Assembly: GCA_025055455.1 (NCBI GenBank)
Contig: JANWXD010000002.1
Span: 195,808 to 259,807 of the forward strand
DNA from: Bryobacteraceae bacterium
Lineage (GTDB): Bacteria > Acidobacteriota > Terriglobia > Bryobacterales > Bryobacteraceae
Direction: 5' to 3'
DNA length: 64,000 nucleotides
Position numbers and translations under genes: made by a program. Under the pieces are notes generated by a model that was not told the origin of the DNA, made no database searches, and was given only the letters and a program-made list of their open reading frames with translations. Numbering within the stretch: position 1 is the first letter of the stretch; each line of letters begins with the position of its first letter. Below are positions 48,017-55,622 of the stretch, in pieces.

Positions 48017-48595
48017 ATGACCCCAACGGTCGCTCGAGTCGTAGTGTTGGTCTGCTGGACACTGATGGGCGTCGTGGCGGTGGCGAGTTACGTCGGCGCC
48101 GCGCGCCGGCGGAGGCGCACCGGCCTCGATCAACGACCCGCGCAGCGCTCTAGCGTCTCCCTGTGGGGTTTAGCCATGGAAGCAGCAGCCTTCGGTTTGA
48201 TTTGGAGCCTGCCACGATCCGATACCGGCCCCGAAATTCTCGGGTGGATGGCCGCCGGCTTGGCGGTGGCGGCTGCCGGGCTTTTCGTCTGGGCGGTGCG
48301 GACATTGGGCGTGCATTTTCGGATTCAAGCTGTCGTGACCCACGATCACCAACTCGTCACCTGCGGCCCCTATCGTTTCCTTCGGCACCCGATCTATGCT
48401 TCGCTGTTGTGGATGCTGCTGTCGAATTCGTTGCTGGTCACCCGCTGGGAGGCTGCCGTGGGCGCTTTAGCTCTCTTCGTGGTGGGCACGGAGATCCGCG
48501 TCCGTGTGGAGGAGCGCTTGCTGGCAGTCTGCTTGCCGGAGGAGTTCGCCGCTTACCGAAGGCGGTTGCCGGCCTACATTCCGTTCTTGCGTTGA
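48017..48595 (+). CDS. Isoprenylcysteine carboxyl methyltransferase-like membrane protein
   Basis: A 192-residue membrane protein. The ATG at 48017 follows GGAG. Four to five hydrophobic segments are followed by the family motif LVTCGPYRFLRHPIYASLLWMLL and a C-terminal EERLLAVCLPEEFAAYRRRLP. These mark the ICMT/PEMT group, which methylates small molecules or lipids from S-adenosylmethionine. Bacterial members often lack a known substrate. It lies 55 bases before an arsenosugar-type pair, so a role in methylating an arsenic intermediate can be considered but is not shown. Confidence 0.85.
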   Translation: MTPTVARVVVLVCWTLMGVVAVASYVGAARRRRRTGLDQRPAQRSSVSLWGLAMEAAAFGLIWSLPRSDTGPEILGWMAAGLAVAAAGLFVWAVRTLGVHFRIQAVVTHDHQLVTCGPYRFLRHPIYASLLWMLLSNSLLVTRWEAAVGALALFVVGTEIRVRVEERLLAVCLPEEFAAYRRRLPAYIPFLR

Positions 48596-48650
48596 CCAGC
48601 ACGGTGAGCCCGCCGGAAGCGAGCGCTGGTGCTACACTGAACCGCTGAAT

Positions 48651-48983
48651 ATGGCCGGTTACTACCACCAGGAAGACCTGCCGCGGTTTGCCGAGATGGG
48701 CCAGTGCGCCCCGGAGCTGTGGCAGAAGTTTTCGGACTGGTACGGGGCGGTGTTTTCCGAGGGGGCCTTGAGCGCCCGCGAGAAGTCGCTGATCGCCCTC
48801 GCCGTGGCCCATGCGATTCAGTGCCCCTACTGCATTGACGCCTACACGCAGCAGTGCCTGGAGACGGGGTCGAACCTCGATCAGATGACGGAGGCGGTCC
48901 ACGTGGCGGCGGCCATCCGCGGGGGGGCTTCGTTGGTGCACGGTTTGCAGATGCGCAACGCGGCCGCCAAGGTGAGCCTGTGA
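48651..48983 (+). CDS. Arsenosugar biosynthesis-associated peroxidase-like protein (AhpD fold)
   Basis: A 110-residue protein with the carboxymuconolactone decarboxylase/AhpD fold. The CxxC active site is in AHAIQCPYCIDAYTQQC, preceded by LSAREKSLIALAV and followed by EAVHVAAAIRGGASLVHG. Family members of this length are commonly encoded directly before arsS. The stop overlaps the GTG start of the next gene, so the two are coupled. Its chemical role is not settled; thiol-dependent reduction is the inference from the CxxC. Confidence 0.9.
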   Translation: MAGYYHQEDLPRFAEMGQCAPELWQKFSDWYGAVFSEGALSAREKSLIALAVAHAIQCPYCIDAYTQQCLETGSNLDQMTEAVHVAAAIRGGASLVHGLQMRNAAAKVSL

Positions 48984-50029
48984 GCCTGGTTGGGGTCGGA
49001 CACCCGCTCGCCAGCCCGGAGGCACAGCTTCGGGTGCTCGAAACGCGTCGACATCGCGCGTGGAAGCCGTTCGAGCAGGCGCTGGCCGAATCGGGTCTAT
49101 TTCCCCTCCGCGCCACAGGCATTCGCGTGCTGCAACTCAATCTCGGCAAACTGTGCAACCAAACCTGCCGGCACTGCCACGTGGACGCGGGACCGGATCG
49201 GCGCGAAATGATGTCGCGCGAAACGGCGGAGTTATGCCTCGCTGCACTGGCGCAGACGGACATCCCCATCGTGGACATTACCGGCGGGGCGCCGGAGTTG
49301 AACCCGAATTTCCGTTGGCTGGTCGAGCAGGCTCGGGCTCTCGGACGGCACGTGATGGACCGGTGCAACCTGACGGTGCTGCTGCTGCCTTCCCAAGCGG
49401 ATCTGGCCCAATTCCTGGCGCGCCACCGCGTGGAGATCGTCGCCAGCCTTCCCTACTATCAGCAGCGGGAAACGGACGCGCAGCGGGGCCAAGGAGTGTT
49501 TGCGAAGTCCATCGAAGCGATCCGGCGACTGAATACGCTCGGCTATGGGCAGCCCGACAGCGGCTTGCAGCTGAACTTGGTCTACAACCCGACAGGGGCG
49601 TTTCTGCCCCCGAACCAGAAGTCCATCGAAGCGGATTTCAAGCGCGAACTGTGGCGCCGCTACGGAGTGCGGTTCAACTCCCTGTATACCATCACCAACA
49701 TGCCCATCAGCCGCTTCCTGGAATATCTGCTCCGGAGCGGCAACTACGAACGCTACATGGAACGTCTGGTGAACGCCTTTAACCCGGAAGCGGCCGCGGG
49801 CGTCATGTGCCGCTCCACGCTGTCGGTTGGCTGGGATGGCACGCTCTATGATTGCGATTTCAATCAGATGCTCGAGCTGTCCGTCAGCTACGGGGCGCCG
49901 CGCCACATTCGGGATTTTGACGTGGCAAAGTTGGCGACTCGGCAAATCCGGGTGGGCCCACACTGCTACGGGTGCACGGCTGGCTGTGGGTCCTCTTGCT
50001 GCGGGACGATAACGAGTTCGGCCCGATAG
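48980..50029 (+). CDS. arsS: Arsenosugar biosynthesis radical SAM protein ArsS
   Basis: A 349-residue radical SAM enzyme. The cluster cysteines are Cys59, Cys63 and Cys66 (LCNQTCRHCH), followed by VDAGPDR and the GGAPELNPNF loop. A C-terminal cysteine-rich part (CRSTLSVGWDGTLYDCDFN, then CYGCTAGCGSSCCG) suggests an auxiliary cluster. ArsS joins a methylated arsenical to the 5'-deoxyadenosyl unit of S-adenosylmethionine, the first arsenosugar-type step. The start is GTG 48980, overlapping the peroxidase-like gene. No arsM is within the window, so the methylated arsenic would have to come from elsewhere or from the methyltransferase-like protein upstream. Confidence 0.92.
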   Translation: MSLVGVGHPLASPEAQLRVLETRRHRAWKPFEQALAESGLFPLRATGIRVLQLNLGKLCNQTCRHCHVDAGPDRREMMSRETAELCLAALAQTDIPIVDITGGAPELNPNFRWLVEQARALGRHVMDRCNLTVLLLPSQADLAQFLARHRVEIVASLPYYQQRETDAQRGQGVFAKSIEAIRRLNTLGYGQPDSGLQLNLVYNPTGAFLPPNQKSIEADFKRELWRRYGVRFNSLYTITNMPISRFLEYLLRSGNYERYMERLVNAFNPEAAAGVMCRSTLSVGWDGTLYDCDFNQMLELSVSYGAPRHIRDFDVAKLATRQIRVGPHCYGCTAGCGSSCCGTITSSAR

Positions 50030-50198: not shown

Positions 50199-51992
50199 AT
50201 GAGCACGCAGCCGATGGAGCCCAAGCCTAGCCCCATGACAGGGCTGGTTCAGATCGAGTCCTCGATCGAGGCGATTGTACGTCAGCGTGTGGCGGAAGAG
50301 CGCGCGCGTCTGGAGCGGGAGGCCGGGCTCACCGCCCAGGAAGTGCGCCACTTCAAGCGTCCCGTGGAAAGGCCCTTTACCAAGGATCAGCGGGGGCATA
50401 CGACGTTGCTGTTCGGTGGCCTGACGTGGAAACACGAGAAACTCATCCACGGTGCGTTGGAGGGTCTAGGATACGTGGCCGAGTGCTTGCCCACGCCGAA
50501 TGTGGCCGCGTTCCAGACGGGCAAGGAGTTCGGCAACAACGGTCAGTGCAACCCGACCTACTTCACCGTCGGCAACCTTGTCCAATACCTGCAGCATCTG
50601 GAGGAGCAAGGCCTGAGCAAGCAGGAGATCATCGACCGCTATGTGTTTTTCACCGCTGGTGCTTGCGGCCCCTGCCGCTTCGGTATGTACGAGGCGGAAT
50701 ACCGTCTGGCGCTGCGCAATGCGGGCTTCGATGGTTTCCGGGTGCTGCTGTTCCAGCAATCGGGTGGCTTGAACCAGGCCGAGGCTGAAGCGGGCCTGGA
50801 GATGAACCTGGATTTCTTCCTCGCCATCCTGAACGCGATGAACTGCGGCGACGTGCTCAACGAGGTCGCCTACGCCATTCGTCCCTTCGAGGTGCGACCG
50901 GGTCAGACCGACGAGACCCTAGAGCGCGTCGTCGAGTACATGCACGAAGTTTTTCGCAACAAGCAGCCGTGGCGCGTGGGTGACAAACTGGCCCGCTACT
51001 TGGGCGGCTTCAAGGACACGGCCGAGTATATCGGCAAATTCCTGAACCAGCTGCGCAGCGACGAGTACACTGGGGCGCTCGAGCGTTGCCGTGACATGTT
51101 CGACTCGATCGAGGTGGACCGGCTCCGCGTCAAGCCCATCGTCAAGATCACGGGTGAGTTCTGGGCGCAGACCACAGAGGGCGATGGCAACTTCAACATG
51201 TTCCGGTTCCTGGAGCGCGAGGGGGCGCAGGTGTTGGTGGAGCCCGTGGGGACTTGGATCATGTACATGCTCCACCAAGTGGTGCAGAAGTATCGCGACT
51301 TCAAGGGATTGGACGAAGGCGCCGTGCTGCCGCCCCTGTGGCGGCTCGACAAACGGGCGAAGATCGAACTCGACTATCGCACCAAGGTGGCCAAACTGAA
51401 GCTCGCCGAGGCGATCTTCCGGCGCGAGTACCAGCGCATCGTGGACGCCTTGGGCGGCTTGGCGCATCCGCTGGTAGATCAGTACGAGCTGCAGCGCATG
51501 GGCCACCCCTTCTACAACTCGAGGGCGGGCGGCGGCGAAGGGCACCTGGAGGTGGCGAAGAACATTTATTACTCCAACAAGGATCTTTGCCACATGGTGC
51601 TGTCGCTGAAGCCGTTCGGCTGCATGCCCTCCACGCAGTCCGACGGCGCGCAGGCGGCCGTCGTGTCGCTATACAAGGACATGATCTTCTTGCCCATCGA
51701 GACTTCCGGAGAAGGCGAGATCAACGCGCACAGCCGCGTGCAAATGGCTCTCGGCGAGGCCAAGAACAAGGCGAAGCGGGAGTTCCAGGAAGTCCTGGAG
51801 AAGACCGGGCTGACCCTGGACGATTGCCGGGCCTTCGTCGATGCCCATCCGGAAATGAAGCGGCCGATGTACAAGGTCCCGCACCACAAGGGCGTGGTCG
51901 GGGTGGCGGCGAACTTCGTGCTCCACATCGCCGAGCGCATGAAACGGGAAAACTGGGTTCCCGAACGCAAAGTGATGGTCGCCGTCGGCTGA
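50199..51992 (+). CDS. 2-hydroxyacyl-CoA dehydratase superfamily protein (HgdB/DUF2229-like), unassigned substrate
   Basis: A 597-residue protein starting at ATG 50199 with GAGAGG upstream. It belongs to the family of the 2-hydroxyglutaryl-CoA dehydratase/benzoyl-CoA reductase subunits. It matches what is the C-terminal half of larger one-chain CoA-activase proteins. Seen cysteines that could hold [4Fe-4S] clusters are in NNGQCNPTYFT, GACGPCRFGMYE, NAMNCGDVL and PFGCMPSTQSDG. The first 50 residues are charged helix. The next gene is its likely ATP-driven electron donor. The reaction is unknown; a low-potential reduction or dehydration is the family-based guess. Confidence 0.85.
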   Translation: MSTQPMEPKPSPMTGLVQIESSIEAIVRQRVAEERARLEREAGLTAQEVRHFKRPVERPFTKDQRGHTTLLFGGLTWKHEKLIHGALEGLGYVAECLPTPNVAAFQTGKEFGNNGQCNPTYFTVGNLVQYLQHLEEQGLSKQEIIDRYVFFTAGACGPCRFGMYEAEYRLALRNAGFDGFRVLLFQQSGGLNQAEAEAGLEMNLDFFLAILNAMNCGDVLNEVAYAIRPFEVRPGQTDETLERVVEYMHEVFRNKQPWRVGDKLARYLGGFKDTAEYIGKFLNQLRSDEYTGALERCRDMFDSIEVDRLRVKPIVKITGEFWAQTTEGDGNFNMFRFLEREGAQVLVEPVGTWIMYMLHQVVQKYRDFKGLDEGAVLPPLWRLDKRAKIELDYRTKVAKLKLAEAIFRREYQRIVDALGGLAHPLVDQYELQRMGHPFYNSRAGGGEGHLEVAKNIYYSNKDLCHMVLSLKPFGCMPSTQSDGAQAAVVSLYKDMIFLPIETSGEGEINAHSRVQMALGEAKNKAKREFQEVLEKTGLTLDDCRAFVDAHPEMKRPMYKVPHHKGVVGVAANFVLHIAERMKRENWVPERKVMVAVG

Positions 51993-52037
51993 AGCGCGGC
52001 GCCGGCTTTTCGCGAAACGACTCGGGGGAGCGACTGC

Positions 52038-55000
52038 ATGCAGAAACACTACTACATCGGCATGGACGTCGGCTCGACGACGGTCAAGGCTGTCGTGGTG
52101 GATCAGCGCACCGACCAAATCGTCTGGCAAGACTACCAGCGCCACGAAACCAAGCAGCCGGAGAAAGTCCTCGAGTTCTTGAAACGCTTCGAGACCGAGA
52201 TCGAAGATTTCGCGCGGGAGCGAGCGCGGATCTTCATCACGGGCTCCGGCGGCGGCGGACTGGCCAAGTACATCGGCGCCAAGTTCGTTCAGGAGGTCAA
52301 CGCCGTCTCCCTGGCGGTGGAGAAGCTGTACCCGGAATGCGGTTCGGTGATCGAGCTGGGCGGTCAAGACGCCAAGATCATCATCTTCAAGGAGGATCCC
52401 GAGACCGGGCGCAAGAAAAAGATCCCCTCGATGAACGACAAGTGCGCCGGTGGCACCGGGGCGGTCATCGACAAAATCAACGCTAAGCTGCGCATTCCGC
52501 CGGATCAGCTCTGCAACATGGGTTACCTCGGGCTCAAGCTGCATCCGGTGGCGGGCAAGTGCGGCGTGTTTGCGGAAACCGACATCAACGGCCTCCAAAA
52601 AGCCGGCGTTCCGCCTGAAGAACTCATGGCCTCGCTGTTCGAGGCGATCGTCATGCAGAACCTTTCGGTGCTCACCCGGGGCAACACCTTGCGCCCGGTG
52701 GTGCTGTTGCTGGGCGGCCCGAACACCTATATTCGGGGGATGCGCGAGTGCTGGAAGCACAACATTCCCAAGATCTGGGCCGAGCGCAACACCCCGCTGC
52801 CCGAAGGGATCCCGCCGGAGGATCTGATCCGCACCCCCGAGAACGCCCAATATTTCGCCGCCATTGGCGCCGTCGAGTTCGGCAAGACCGAAGAGGAGGG
52901 GGTCGGCCAATATCTGGGTTGGGAAAAGCTCGAATGGTACATCCACGTCGGCCGGGAGGAGGAAAAGGCCAAGAAGGGGGGCAAGGGCGGGTTAGCCAAA
53001 AGCCCCGAGGAATTGGAGGCCTTCAAGGCGAAATATCGGCACAAGAAGTTCGTCCCGGCCACCTTCCAGCCGGGGGAGATCGTCGAGGGGTTCATCGGCA
53101 TCGATGGCGGCTCGACGTCCACCAAGGCGGTGTTGCTGTCCAAGGACCAGGACCGGCGCGTGCTGGCCAAGGCCTATCAGCTCTCCCGAGGCAATCCCAT
53201 CGAGGACACGATGGAGATTTTCGCCAAGCTGCGCAAGCAGGTGGAGGACCAAGGGGCCACGCTCAAGGTGCTCGGGGTGGGCACCACCGGGTATGCCAAG
53301 GACATCTTGAAGGACGTCATCGGGGCCGACGCCGCCATCGTGGAGACCGTGGCCCACACGCAGGCCGGACTCCACTTCTATAAGGACATCGACGTTATCT
53401 GCGACGTCGGCGGACAGGACATCAAGATCATCATTCTCAAAAATGGCCGCGTCAAGGACTTCAAGCTGAACACCCAGTGTTCGGCCGGCAACGGCTACTT
53501 TTTGCAGTCCACCGCCCAGGGCTTTGGCTACCCGGTCGAGCAGTTCGCCGACGTGGCGTTCAGCGCCACCAGCTTCCCGCAATTCGGCTACGGTTGCGCG
53601 GTCTTCATGCAGTCCGACATCGTGGATTTCCAGCGGCAGGGTTGGAAGCCCGAAGAGATCATGGCCGGGCTGTGCAACGTGCTGCCGAAGAACATCTGGC
53701 TGTACGTTTCGCAGATCCCGAATTTGTCGGCGATCGGGCGGCGGTTCCTGCTCCAGGGCGGCACGCAGTACAACCTCGCGGCGGTCAAGGCCCAGGTGGA
53801 CTTTATCGAATCCCGTTTCCGCGGCAAGGACGTACAGCCGGAGGTCATCGTACATGAGCACTGCGGGGAGGCGGGCGCCATCGGCGCGGCGCTCGAGGCC
53901 GCCCGGCTGTGGGAGATGGGGCGGCAGACCACGTTCATCGGCCTCGATGCGGTCCAGCGGATCGAGTACAAAACCACGCGCAACGAAAACACTCGCTGCT
54001 ATTTTTGCAAGAACAAGTGCTTGCGCACGTTCATCGACGTCAAAACCAGCGTGCTCAGCGAGACGGCCTACCGTCCCACCAAGAGCAAAGTTCCCCTGGA
54101 AGAGGGAGCGCAGCGGCTCATCATCGCCACCTGCGAGAAAGGCACAGTGGAAGACATCAACGAGATGCGGAACATCAAGGGCAACCTGGACCGCGTCAAG
54201 AAGGCCAATCCGAACTTTGTCGAGATCGCGGCCAGGGCGGTGTTCCGCGTCCCGGACGTTCCGTTGGTGGCGGACCCGCTGCCCAAGATCCGCCTGACCC
54301 CCGCCCAGAAGAAGCGGGCCGAGCTGATGAGCCGGCGGGCGCGGCTCCGCATCGGCATGCCGCGCGTGTTGAACATGTACTCGGTGGCGCCGGTCTTCAC
54401 GGCTTACTTTGCCTCGCTGGGCGTGAAGGCGGAAAACATCGTCTTCTCCGACTACACCAGCGAGCAGCTGTACAAGGAAGGCGCCAAGCGCGGTTCGATC
54501 GACCCTTGTTTTCCGTCAAAACTCGGCATACCGCACGTCCACAATCTGCTGTACGTGCACCACGCCAAGAAGCCGCTCGACATTATTTTCTTCCCGATGA
54601 TCGACGATCTGCCGAGCGACTTGGCGTGCACGATCGACAGCCGGGCCTGCCCGACGGTGGCCACGACGCCGGAAGCGGTCAAAGCGGCCTTTACCAAAGA
54701 GGGCGACCTGTTCAAAGAAAAGGGTGTGCTGTTCCTGGACACCTTTGTCAATCTCAAAGACCCGAAGGTGTTCGAGCGGCAAATGTTCCAGCAGTTCAAG
54801 GACATTCTGGGTCTGTCTCCGGAGGAGAATCATCGCGCTGTCCAGGAAGGCTACAAGGCGCTCGATTCTTACCTCAACGTCACGCTCCGGGGCGCGGCCC
54901 GCGAGGTGCTGGAGCAACTGGAGCGGGAAGACCGCCTGGGCGTGGTGCTGCTCGGGCGGCCGTACCACAACGATCCGGGCATCAACCACGAAATCCTCGA

Positions 55001-55622
55001 GGAGTTCCAGAAGCTCGGCTATCCGGTCTTCACGCAGGACTGCTTGCCCATTGACGATGACATCATCTGGCGGCTGTTCGGTGACGAGGTGCGCGCCGGC
55101 GAAATCCCGCATCCCATGGCCATTACGGACGTCTGGAAGAACTCCTATAGCGAAAACACGTCACGCAAGGTTTGGGCGGCCAAGTACGTGGCGCGGCACC
55201 CCAATTTGGTGGCCCTGGAGCTTTCCAGCTTCAAGTGCGGCCACGACGCGCCCATCTACACCGTGGTCGAGGAGATCGTGGAGCATTCCGGAACGCCTTA
55301 TTTCTGCTTCAAGGACATCGACGAGAACAAGCCGACGGGCTCGATCAAGATCCGCGTGGAGACCATCGCGTACTTCCTCAAGCGGTACCGCGAGGACATG
55401 GTCGAGGCCAAGAAGAAGCGCAGCTCAATTGACGCGCAATTGGCGGAATTCGAAAAGCGGCTCCGCCTGCAGTTGCTCAAAGAGCGACTGGCGCAGCTCG
55501 AAAGCGACGAAAAGGTCAAACGGAGCTTGGACCAGGGCGCGATGCCGCAGATTCACGTTTCGGTGGCGGCTCTGGCGGCCTCCCGGCCACAAGCCCCGAC
55601 ACAACATGCGACCGGAGACTAG
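52038..55622 (+). CDS. Tandem ASKHA ATPase activase (BcrA/BadF-type, two copies) fused to a dehydratase-like domain
   Basis: A 1194-residue protein. Domain 1 (about 1-290) is an ASKHA activase, GMDVGSTTVKAVVV and ELGGQDAKIII, with cluster cysteines Cys136 (NDKCAGGTGA) and Cys175 (GKCGVFAETDI). Domain 2 (about 350-630) repeats this with GIDGGSTSTKAVLL, DVGGQDIKIII, Cys481 (NTQCSAGNGYF) and Cys520 (YGCAVFMQSDI). In both copies the two cysteines are 39 apart, the spacing I recall for the HgdC activase. A CYFCKNKC cluster motif follows at 654-661. Residues 750-1130 resemble the dehydratase family (SIDPCFPSKLG, DSRACPT, SFKCGHDAP). The last 60 residues are coiled coil. ATP use should push electrons to very low potential. 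Partner: the gene 45 bases upstream. Confidence 0.88.
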   Translation: MQKHYYIGMDVGSTTVKAVVVDQRTDQIVWQDYQRHETKQPEKVLEFLKRFETEIEDFARERARIFITGSGGGGLAKYIGAKFVQEVNAVSLAVEKLYPECGSVIELGGQDAKIIIFKEDPETGRKKKIPSMNDKCAGGTGAVIDKINAKLRIPPDQLCNMGYLGLKLHPVAGKCGVFAETDINGLQKAGVPPEELMASLFEAIVMQNLSVLTRGNTLRPVVLLLGGPNTYIRGMRECWKHNIPKIWAERNTPLPEGIPPEDLIRTPENAQYFAAIGAVEFGKTEEEGVGQYLGWEKLEWYIHVGREEEKAKKGGKGGLAKSPEELEAFKAKYRHKKFVPATFQPGEIVEGFIGIDGGSTSTKAVLLSKDQDRRVLAKAYQLSRGNPIEDTMEIFAKLRKQVEDQGATLKVLGVGTTGYAKDILKDVIGADAAIVETVAHTQAGLHFYKDIDVICDVGGQDIKIIILKNGRVKDFKLNTQCSAGNGYFLQSTAQGFGYPVEQFADVAFSATSFPQFGYGCAVFMQSDIVDFQRQGWKPEEIMAGLCNVLPKNIWLYVSQIPNLSAIGRRFLLQGGTQYNLAAVKAQVDFIESRFRGKDVQPEVIVHEHCGEAGAIGAALEAARLWEMGRQTTFIGLDAVQRIEYKTTRNENTRCYFCKNKCLRTFIDVKTSVLSETAYRPTKSKVPLEEGAQRLIIATCEKGTVEDINEMRNIKGNLDRVKKANPNFVEIAARAVFRVPDVPLVADPLPKIRLTPAQKKRAELMSRRARLRIGMPRVLNMYSVAPVFTAYFASLGVKAENIVFSDYTSEQLYKEGAKRGSIDPCFPSKLGIPHVHNLLYVHHAKKPLDIIFFPMIDDLPSDLACTIDSRACPTVATTPEAVKAAFTKEGDLFKEKGVLFLDTFVNLKDPKVFERQMFQQFKDILGLSPEENHRAVQEGYKALDSYLNVTLRGAAREVLEQLEREDRLGVVLLGRPYHNDPGINHEILEEFQKLGYPVFTQDCLPIDDDIIWRLFGDEVRAGEIPHPMAITDVWKNSYSENTSRKVWAAKYVARHPNLVALELSSFKCGHDAPIYTVVEEIVEHSGTPYFCFKDIDENKPTGSIKIRVETIAYFLKRYREDMVEAKKKRSSIDAQLAEFEKRLRLQLLKERLAQLESDEKVKRSLDQGAMPQIHVSVAALAASRPQAPTQHATGD

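Follow-up and report, generated by a model that had tools for sequence, protein, structure and literature searches.

The stretch of DNA analysed here, called the window in the following, comprises 64,000 nucleotides of contig JANWXD010000002.1 from a Bryobacteraceae bacterium with a genome of 3.95 Mb. It contains a two-gene unit, P1 followed by P2, in which both genes lie on the forward strand and are separated by 45 bases. At this locus, the named assemblies closest to it come from Bryobacterales and other Acidobacteriota. A first-pass annotation made from the sequence alone had described the pair as a dehydratase/activase system driving very-low-potential reduction with ATP. The two genes were confirmed where it had placed them, and the pair is probably a four-module ATP-dependent low-potential reductase. 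Its parts are the following:

50199–51992, forward strand: P1, 597 amino acids, ATG start at 50199; predicted dehydratase/reductase-fold subunit
52038–55622, forward strand: P2, 1194 amino acids; fusion of activase, activase, four-cysteine module and DUF2229 end
52056–52718 (contig C68 247863–248525), forward strand: activase copy 1 of P2, covering PF01869 model positions 1–229; holds C136 and C175
53094–53900, forward strand: activase copy 2 of P2, residues 353–621, the best PF01869 stretch, with a 4ehu_B match over residues 350–628; holds C481 and C520
53997–54134, forward strand: four-cysteine module CX2CX3CX37C of P2 (C654, C657, C661, C699); predicted extra [4Fe-4S] or zinc site
54348–55043, forward strand: DUF2229 core of P2 (Pfam), residues 771–1002
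54507–55238, forward strand: span of C824, C871 and C1067, predicted three-cysteine site for a putative cluster in the DUF2229 end

In P2 the Pfam model PF01869 (BcrAD_BadFG) matched in two stretches with 239.2 bits (cut-off 31.5), and the NCBIfam model TIGR00241 for the acyl-coenzyme A (CoA) dehydratase activase domain with 205 bits (cut-off 125.4). The equivalog models for benzoyl-CoA reductase subunits A, D and Q remained far below their cut-offs (110.7 versus 578, 70.7 versus 312.85 and 81.7 versus 380.2). A search of the PDB sequences returned activases only, with 1hux and 4eht leading. The structural model of P2, built from 54 alignment rows, had a predicted local distance difference test score (pLDDT) of 77.9 and a predicted template modelling score of 0.65. 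Its Foldseek ranks 1–10 were activases of the benzoyl-CoA reductase/2-hydroxyacyl-CoA dehydratase (BCR/HAD) superfamily and of the double-cubane-cluster protein (DCCP) throughout, and no superfamily reductase chain was among the matches listed. In this predicted fold, activase copy 2 superimposed on 4ehu_B with a Z of 28.7 and a root-mean-square deviation (rmsd) of 2.1 over 256 residues.

The cysteine positions first given for the two activase copies, 136/175 and 481/520 with 39 residues between the members of each pair, are exact. Two activase copies are present, but the accompanying term “double ATPase” is an overstatement. Known activases are dimers with one [4Fe-4S] cluster per dimer, to which each monomer contributes two cysteines (PMC11574389). 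The two copies in P2 are therefore most likely to be read as one pseudo-dimer that would share one bridging [4Fe-4S] cluster. The CxxCxxxC site that had been noticed in P2 consists of C654, C657 and C661, to which the form of the pair found in the window (the window type) adds the conserved C699. In a flavoenzyme family, a CX2CX3CX11-13C motif has been predicted as a [4Fe-4S] site (PMC11574389). Since the spacing in P2 differs from this motif and the fourth cysteine is not universal, a cluster at the P2 module is possible as a guess, and zinc might be bound instead. The dehydratase-like end ascribed to P2 corresponds to the DUF2229 domain.

For P1, neither Pfam (E ≤ 0.001) nor NCBIfam (E ≤ 0.01) provided a family match, and a single-sequence search of the PDB sequences found nothing at E ≤ 1. 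A structural model built from 69 alignment rows (pLDDT 78.7) was matched by Foldseek, among the top five, to DCCP (6eno, rank 1, probability 1.00, E 1.6e-3), to MbdON chains of 3-methylbenzoyl-CoA reductase (9g87, 9gai) and to the dehydratase 3o3o. In VIA-align 2, ten superfamily entries stood on top with Z from 9.1 to 6.0. The best of them was the dehydratase chain 3o3n_B (Z 9.1, rmsd 4.8, 282 aligned residues), and 6eno reached a Z of 8.4, a modest margin. The predicted fold of P1 resembles, by a modest margin, the dehydratase/reductase fold of the BCR/HAD superfamily, in agreement with its earlier description as a dehydratase-like protein.

The cysteines are strictly kept. In P2, C136, C175, C481, C520, C654, C657, C661, C699, C824, C871 and C1067 are cysteine in all 54 rows; C455 is also invariant in 54/54 but is substituted in distant forms. 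In P1, C117, C156, C159 and C475 are cysteine in 69 of 69 rows. A diverse set of 28 P1-like sequences, including five of a second type described below, retained C117, C159 and C475 throughout, while C156 was kept in 22 and replaced by D, E or G in the others. In a wider P2 set, every row reaching a ligand site carried cysteine there except at C699, which is G in four second-type rows; one sequence (L147_13), which reached C136 and C175 only via a misplaced end, was left out at these two positions. L168, a one-chain form, and L005, the divergent second system, both align with cysteine at ten P2 sites and three P1 core sites and lack C699 and C156. The loss of cysteines in relatives had been named as the observation that would speak against the first interpretation; checked in these alignments, it did not refute it. 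Judged from these alignments, the core set of putative ligands comprises the four pump cysteines, CxxCxxxC and three cysteines per reductase domain, with C699 and C156 as marks of the window type. C117, C159 and C475 are the predicted three-cysteine cluster site of P1. In BzdO a three-cysteine cluster is held by Cys95/128/380, and in BzdN a six-cysteine double cubane by Cys36/73/100/263/293/327 (PMC11971306). By sequence, P1 and the DUF2229 end would fit the BzdO count and not the BzdN count. In-frame stops occur in the P1 matches of six genomes. Selenocysteine was considered for them and rejected on the three that were inspected, where the stop was the natural gene end (L136, L144) or a premature stop close to the C-terminus, at a residue other than cysteine in P1 (L140).

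The order of the two genes is stable. Among 116 surveyed loci (L036–L151) both proteins were present in 103 according to our filters, and 102 of these had P1 ahead of P2, with both on the same strand and no more than 2 kb apart; in the remaining locus, L142, the reading frames are odd. Of the loci without both proteins, four (L047, L081, L087, L105) have P2 truncated at its start by the locus edge, two (L088, L139) reach no further than P1 and one (L150) holds a P2 remnant with the middle missing. No P2 lay within L076, L100, L108, L114, L136 and L141, in which the available room was as small as 0.8 kb (L114). P2 was found about 1.4 kb further on in the genome of L141, on another contig in those of L076 and L136, and elsewhere in that of L108. 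The P1 match is in two pieces in L150 (G396:C7) and L151 (G421:C44); P2 mostly lacks its middle in the former and is whole in the latter, so that either gene decay or an assembly error may be involved. A glyoxalase/VOC-like gene, as judged by reading, stands between P1 and P2 in L090, L092, L094, L095, L098 and L111, starting as few as 14 bases past P1, and L115 has a similar frame.

The source genome contains a second system (on G000:C57, locus L005 8553–12904), in which a 1021-residue activase-activase-DUF2229 protein is followed by a 429-residue small protein, i.e. the gene order is reversed compared to P1-P2. Its proteins share 24–25% identity with P2 and P1 in BLAST, from which the likeness of window type and second type was taken; profile matches of 1e-198 were not used, as the sets may share members. 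The small protein of L005 follows its partner, whereas window-type P1 comes first, is longer and has extra stretches, including one at about residues 360–410. On the second-type small protein the Pfam DUF2229 model scored 25.4 bits, below the cut-off of 29.4. A tree built from 52 sequences of the small protein, 39 of the window type and 13 of the second type, splits the two at 100/100, with a warning for long branches. Upstream of L005 lie genes that read as a histidine kinase and a sigma54-type regulator, with an opposite-strand gene in between. L168 combines two activase stretches and DUF2229 in a single chain of 1431 residues, and its C-terminal part is matched by P1 (22.8%) and by the L005 small protein (27.5%). 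In L145, L146, L147 and L149 the DUF2229 part occupies a separate frame (checked with Pfam on L145 only), L145 being a three-chain form. Such one-, two- and three-chain forms of the same modules are as expected for parts of one complex.

Window-type P1 occurs in 39 of 396 sampled Acidobacteriota genomes (E ≤ 1e-30). Among 61 close relatives it has strong matches in 17 (partial in G016) and DUF2229 is present in 23; beyond these, DUF2229 turned up in 4 of 14 control genomes, Lactococcus lactis and Thermotoga maritima among them. One genome has two window-type P1 genes at separate places (L018 and L028; G026:C11 and G026:C5). Relatives of P1 include L075 (77% identity), whose record title Acidimicrobiia is probably wrong, and L110 (69% identity), with the record title Zixiibacteriota. 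The window type forms a lineage of its own, well conserved, within a kind of enzyme that is known but apparently uncharacterised.

We consider it likely that P1 and P2 together form one ATP-dependent low-potential reductase of the BCR/HAD superfamily, which would operate as follows. The ASKHA halves of P2 would form an internal pseudo-dimer in which C136, C175, C481 and C520 hold one bridging [4Fe-4S] cluster. ATP hydrolysis in both halves would bend the hinge and drive one electron at a time onward. The electron would arrive first at a second-stage cluster of the DUF2229 end (C824, C871, C1067) and from there reach the P1 cluster (C117, C159, C475), where the substrate would be reduced or dehydrated. 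As a guess, P1 is favoured over the DUF2229 end as the catalytic domain. The CxxCxxxC module would take in the electrons, probably from ferredoxin, or may be structural. A bridging cluster and an electron relay have been described for known superfamily members (PMC11574389). The activase fold of P2, the predicted fold of P1 and the kept cysteines all support the ATP-driven very-low-potential reductase that had first been suggested.

Several observations weigh against this proposal. The reductase fold of P1 was not reached by profile searches, as the P1 profile found no superfamily chain among the PDB sequences. In Foldseek the best E of 1.6e-3 left no match at E ≤ 0.001, with TM-scores of 0.32–0.42, and in VIA-align 2 the first unrelated row followed at a Z of 5.9, a small margin. 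The DUF2229 end and P1 were only weakly alike (hhalign P 0.002–0.009). Both models fall below a pLDDT of 50 around most of the predicted ligands: near the cysteines of P1 at 155–162 and 472–477, and in P2 at 130–139, 172–181, 480–484, 517–524, 816–823 and 1065–1068. The missing metal may be the cause of this low confidence in the models. In two genomes (G023, G365) P1 and P2 are on different contigs, and the genome of L100 has an activase-type match only.

Four other functions were weighed. A role in activation or repair, with the pair reducing a metal site or a radical cofactor in some other protein, is unlikely. The lack of widely conserved neighbours and the presence of two independent systems in a single genome would suit such a role, and in a table of methanogen core genes a related activase appears alongside McrC-like proteins (PMC4153887). 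No client gene is linked to the pair, however, and in BzdNO and HadBC the two-subunit reductase-type core holds a small substrate (PMC11971306, PMC11574389).

We regard it as improbable that the pair is a 2-hydroxyacyl-CoA dehydratase, in which a single firing of the pump would set off a radical dehydration and the electron would then be reused. Two three-cysteine subunits plus an activase match the component D/component A plan (PMC11574389), and the best VIA-align 2 match of P1 is a dehydratase. In that system, however, the activase is separate (PMC11574389), whereas the pump found here, fused to one subunit, would better suit repeated ATP-coupled turnover. P1 also lacks any Pfam match, and the nine scanned window neighbours include no CoA or amino-acid fermentation family, which is weak evidence.

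An aromatic acyl-CoA reductase similar to class I benzoyl-CoA reductase, as proposed for Ruminococcus and strain M08DHB, has an equally low probability. The count of two plus two modules equals that of BcrABCD (PMC11362221; similar claim in PMC9686372) and MbdON is among the fold matches of P1. Against this stand the far-missed subunit A, D and Q cut-offs and the absence of a widely conserved neighbour. Moreover, the acid/base residue His131 of BzdO (PMC11971306) meets Gly162 in P1 (C159+3) and Val874 in P2 (C871+3), in a register that is assumed and not structural. A small-molecule reductase of the DCCP kind is very improbable: 6eno leads the Foldseek list for P1, but the Z values fail to separate DCCP from the dehydratase, and a double cubane as in BzdN needs six cysteines (PMC11971306), compared to four invariant ones in P1 and three in the DUF2229 end.

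For the favoured reductase, reduced ferredoxin is the likely donor. Pyruvate:ferredoxin oxidoreductase was over cut-off in 22 of the 61 relatives and had some match in 59. It accompanied DUF2229 systems in 16 of 23 genomes and occurred in 6 of 38 without them (one-sided p 3e-5, with this and the following p-values ignoring the kinship of the genomes); within the family the numbers were 15/21 versus 5/16 (p 0.017). For the window type they were 12/17 versus 10/44 (p 0.0008) overall and 11/16 versus 9/21 (p 0.11) within the family. The link is suggestive but is treated here as weak, as it also is for the window type inside the family. None of the 61 relatives had a class III ribonucleotide reductase (TIGR02487), which gives no sign of strict anaerobiosis; since it was absent throughout, this marker cannot discriminate between genomes.

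The surroundings of the pair were compared in 80 of 424 relatives. No widespread operon partner was found among them, and no other gene cluster recurred in more than 10 of the 80 loci. The most frequent cluster, in 10 loci (L047, L049, L053–L056, L062, L063, L078, L096), reads as a lipase-maturation-factor-like gene upstream of P1, on the opposite strand in nine of them. Two further recurrent clusters (9 and 8 loci) appear to be frames antisense to P1 and P2. A small conserved protein of about 94–123 residues directly follows P2 in L091, L101, L106 and L109, and L103 has a relative of it about 5 kb away. In the window itself, the family scan placed ICMT-like, arsenosugar-type AhpD-like and ArsS radical SAM genes upstream of the pair, and a glycosyltransferase, a family-less gene, a galactarate/altronate dehydratase-like gene and a DsbA-like gene downstream. 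The arsenosugar AhpD-like and ArsS genes lie directly upstream on the same strand (48504–50026; TIGR04169 and TIGR04167 above cut-off), and flank clustering found no arsenosugar-type gene cluster recurring in at least 4 of the 80 loci.

In line with the first-pass annotation, the scan of nine window neighbours, one of which matched nothing, named no CoA ligase, CoA transferase or beta-oxidation family. Its conclusion that a hydroxyacyl-CoA substrate is therefore improbable is unsupported, given that no gene recurs widely in the 80 relatives. With no widely conserved gene in the flanks, the neighbourhood is a poor guide to the substrate; the P1-P2 unit largely stands alone and the absent CoA genes are not informative on its substrate. 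Only tentatively, and with some doubt, do we suggest a self-contained reductase with a pseudo-dimeric pump, an extra cysteine relay and two single-cluster domains that acts on something other than a CoA thioester, be it a small molecule or a metal site within a different protein, in Acidobacteriota without detectable class III ribonucleotide reductase that are possibly facultative or aerobic.

Compared to known systems, the pair shares the module count and the activase fold with the class I benzoyl-CoA reductases BcrABCD, BzdNOPQ and MbdNOPQ, which also consist of two activase and two reductase-fold units. These are four separate subunits there. To our knowledge, class I benzoyl-CoA reductases have no extra CxxCxxxC module. 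The (R)-2-hydroxyacyl-CoA dehydratase (3o3n) with its activase (4eht/4ehu, 1hux) likewise has two dehydratase-fold units and three-cysteine sites, but its activase is a separate homodimer and its CoA substrate is defined (PMC11574389). DCCP/DCCP-R is an ATP-driven reductase of the same fold family; DCCP is a homodimer with a double-cubane [8Fe-9S] cluster, whose six-cysteine count P1 does not match.

Closest in layout is the two-component group with a double activase-DUF2229 chain and an adjacent HGD-D-like protein, an arrangement also found in P1-P2. Two Ruminococcus metagenome-assembled genomes encode two fused activases with DUF2229 and a separate HGD-D-like partner, described as a putative aromatic acyl-CoA reductase (PMC11362221). 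For the actinobacterial strain M08DHB a two-component pair has been described, with aromatics as the guessed substrates (PMC9686372). Within this group sequences were compared with L005 only, which has the same double activase-DUF2229 protein plus separate small protein and keeps the core cysteines; the Ruminococcus and M08DHB pairs were compared by description. Homologues with this layout and an assigned reaction had been named as what would overturn the first interpretation: the layout is in print, but an experimentally assigned homologue was not found, nor was any measured activity for the layout in the literature accessible here, most subscription papers lying outside the search.

New here are the conserved ligand set, the superfamily-like fold predicted for P1, the one-, two- and three-chain forms and the two parallel systems in one genome. 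The potentials reached by ATP-driven electron pumps other than nitrogenase are ones that few enzymes can use, and the present branch is not rare. Its compact form, with all modules in two genes or even one, would make expression and an activity screen practical, so that the question of what orphan superfamily members reduce becomes directly testable.

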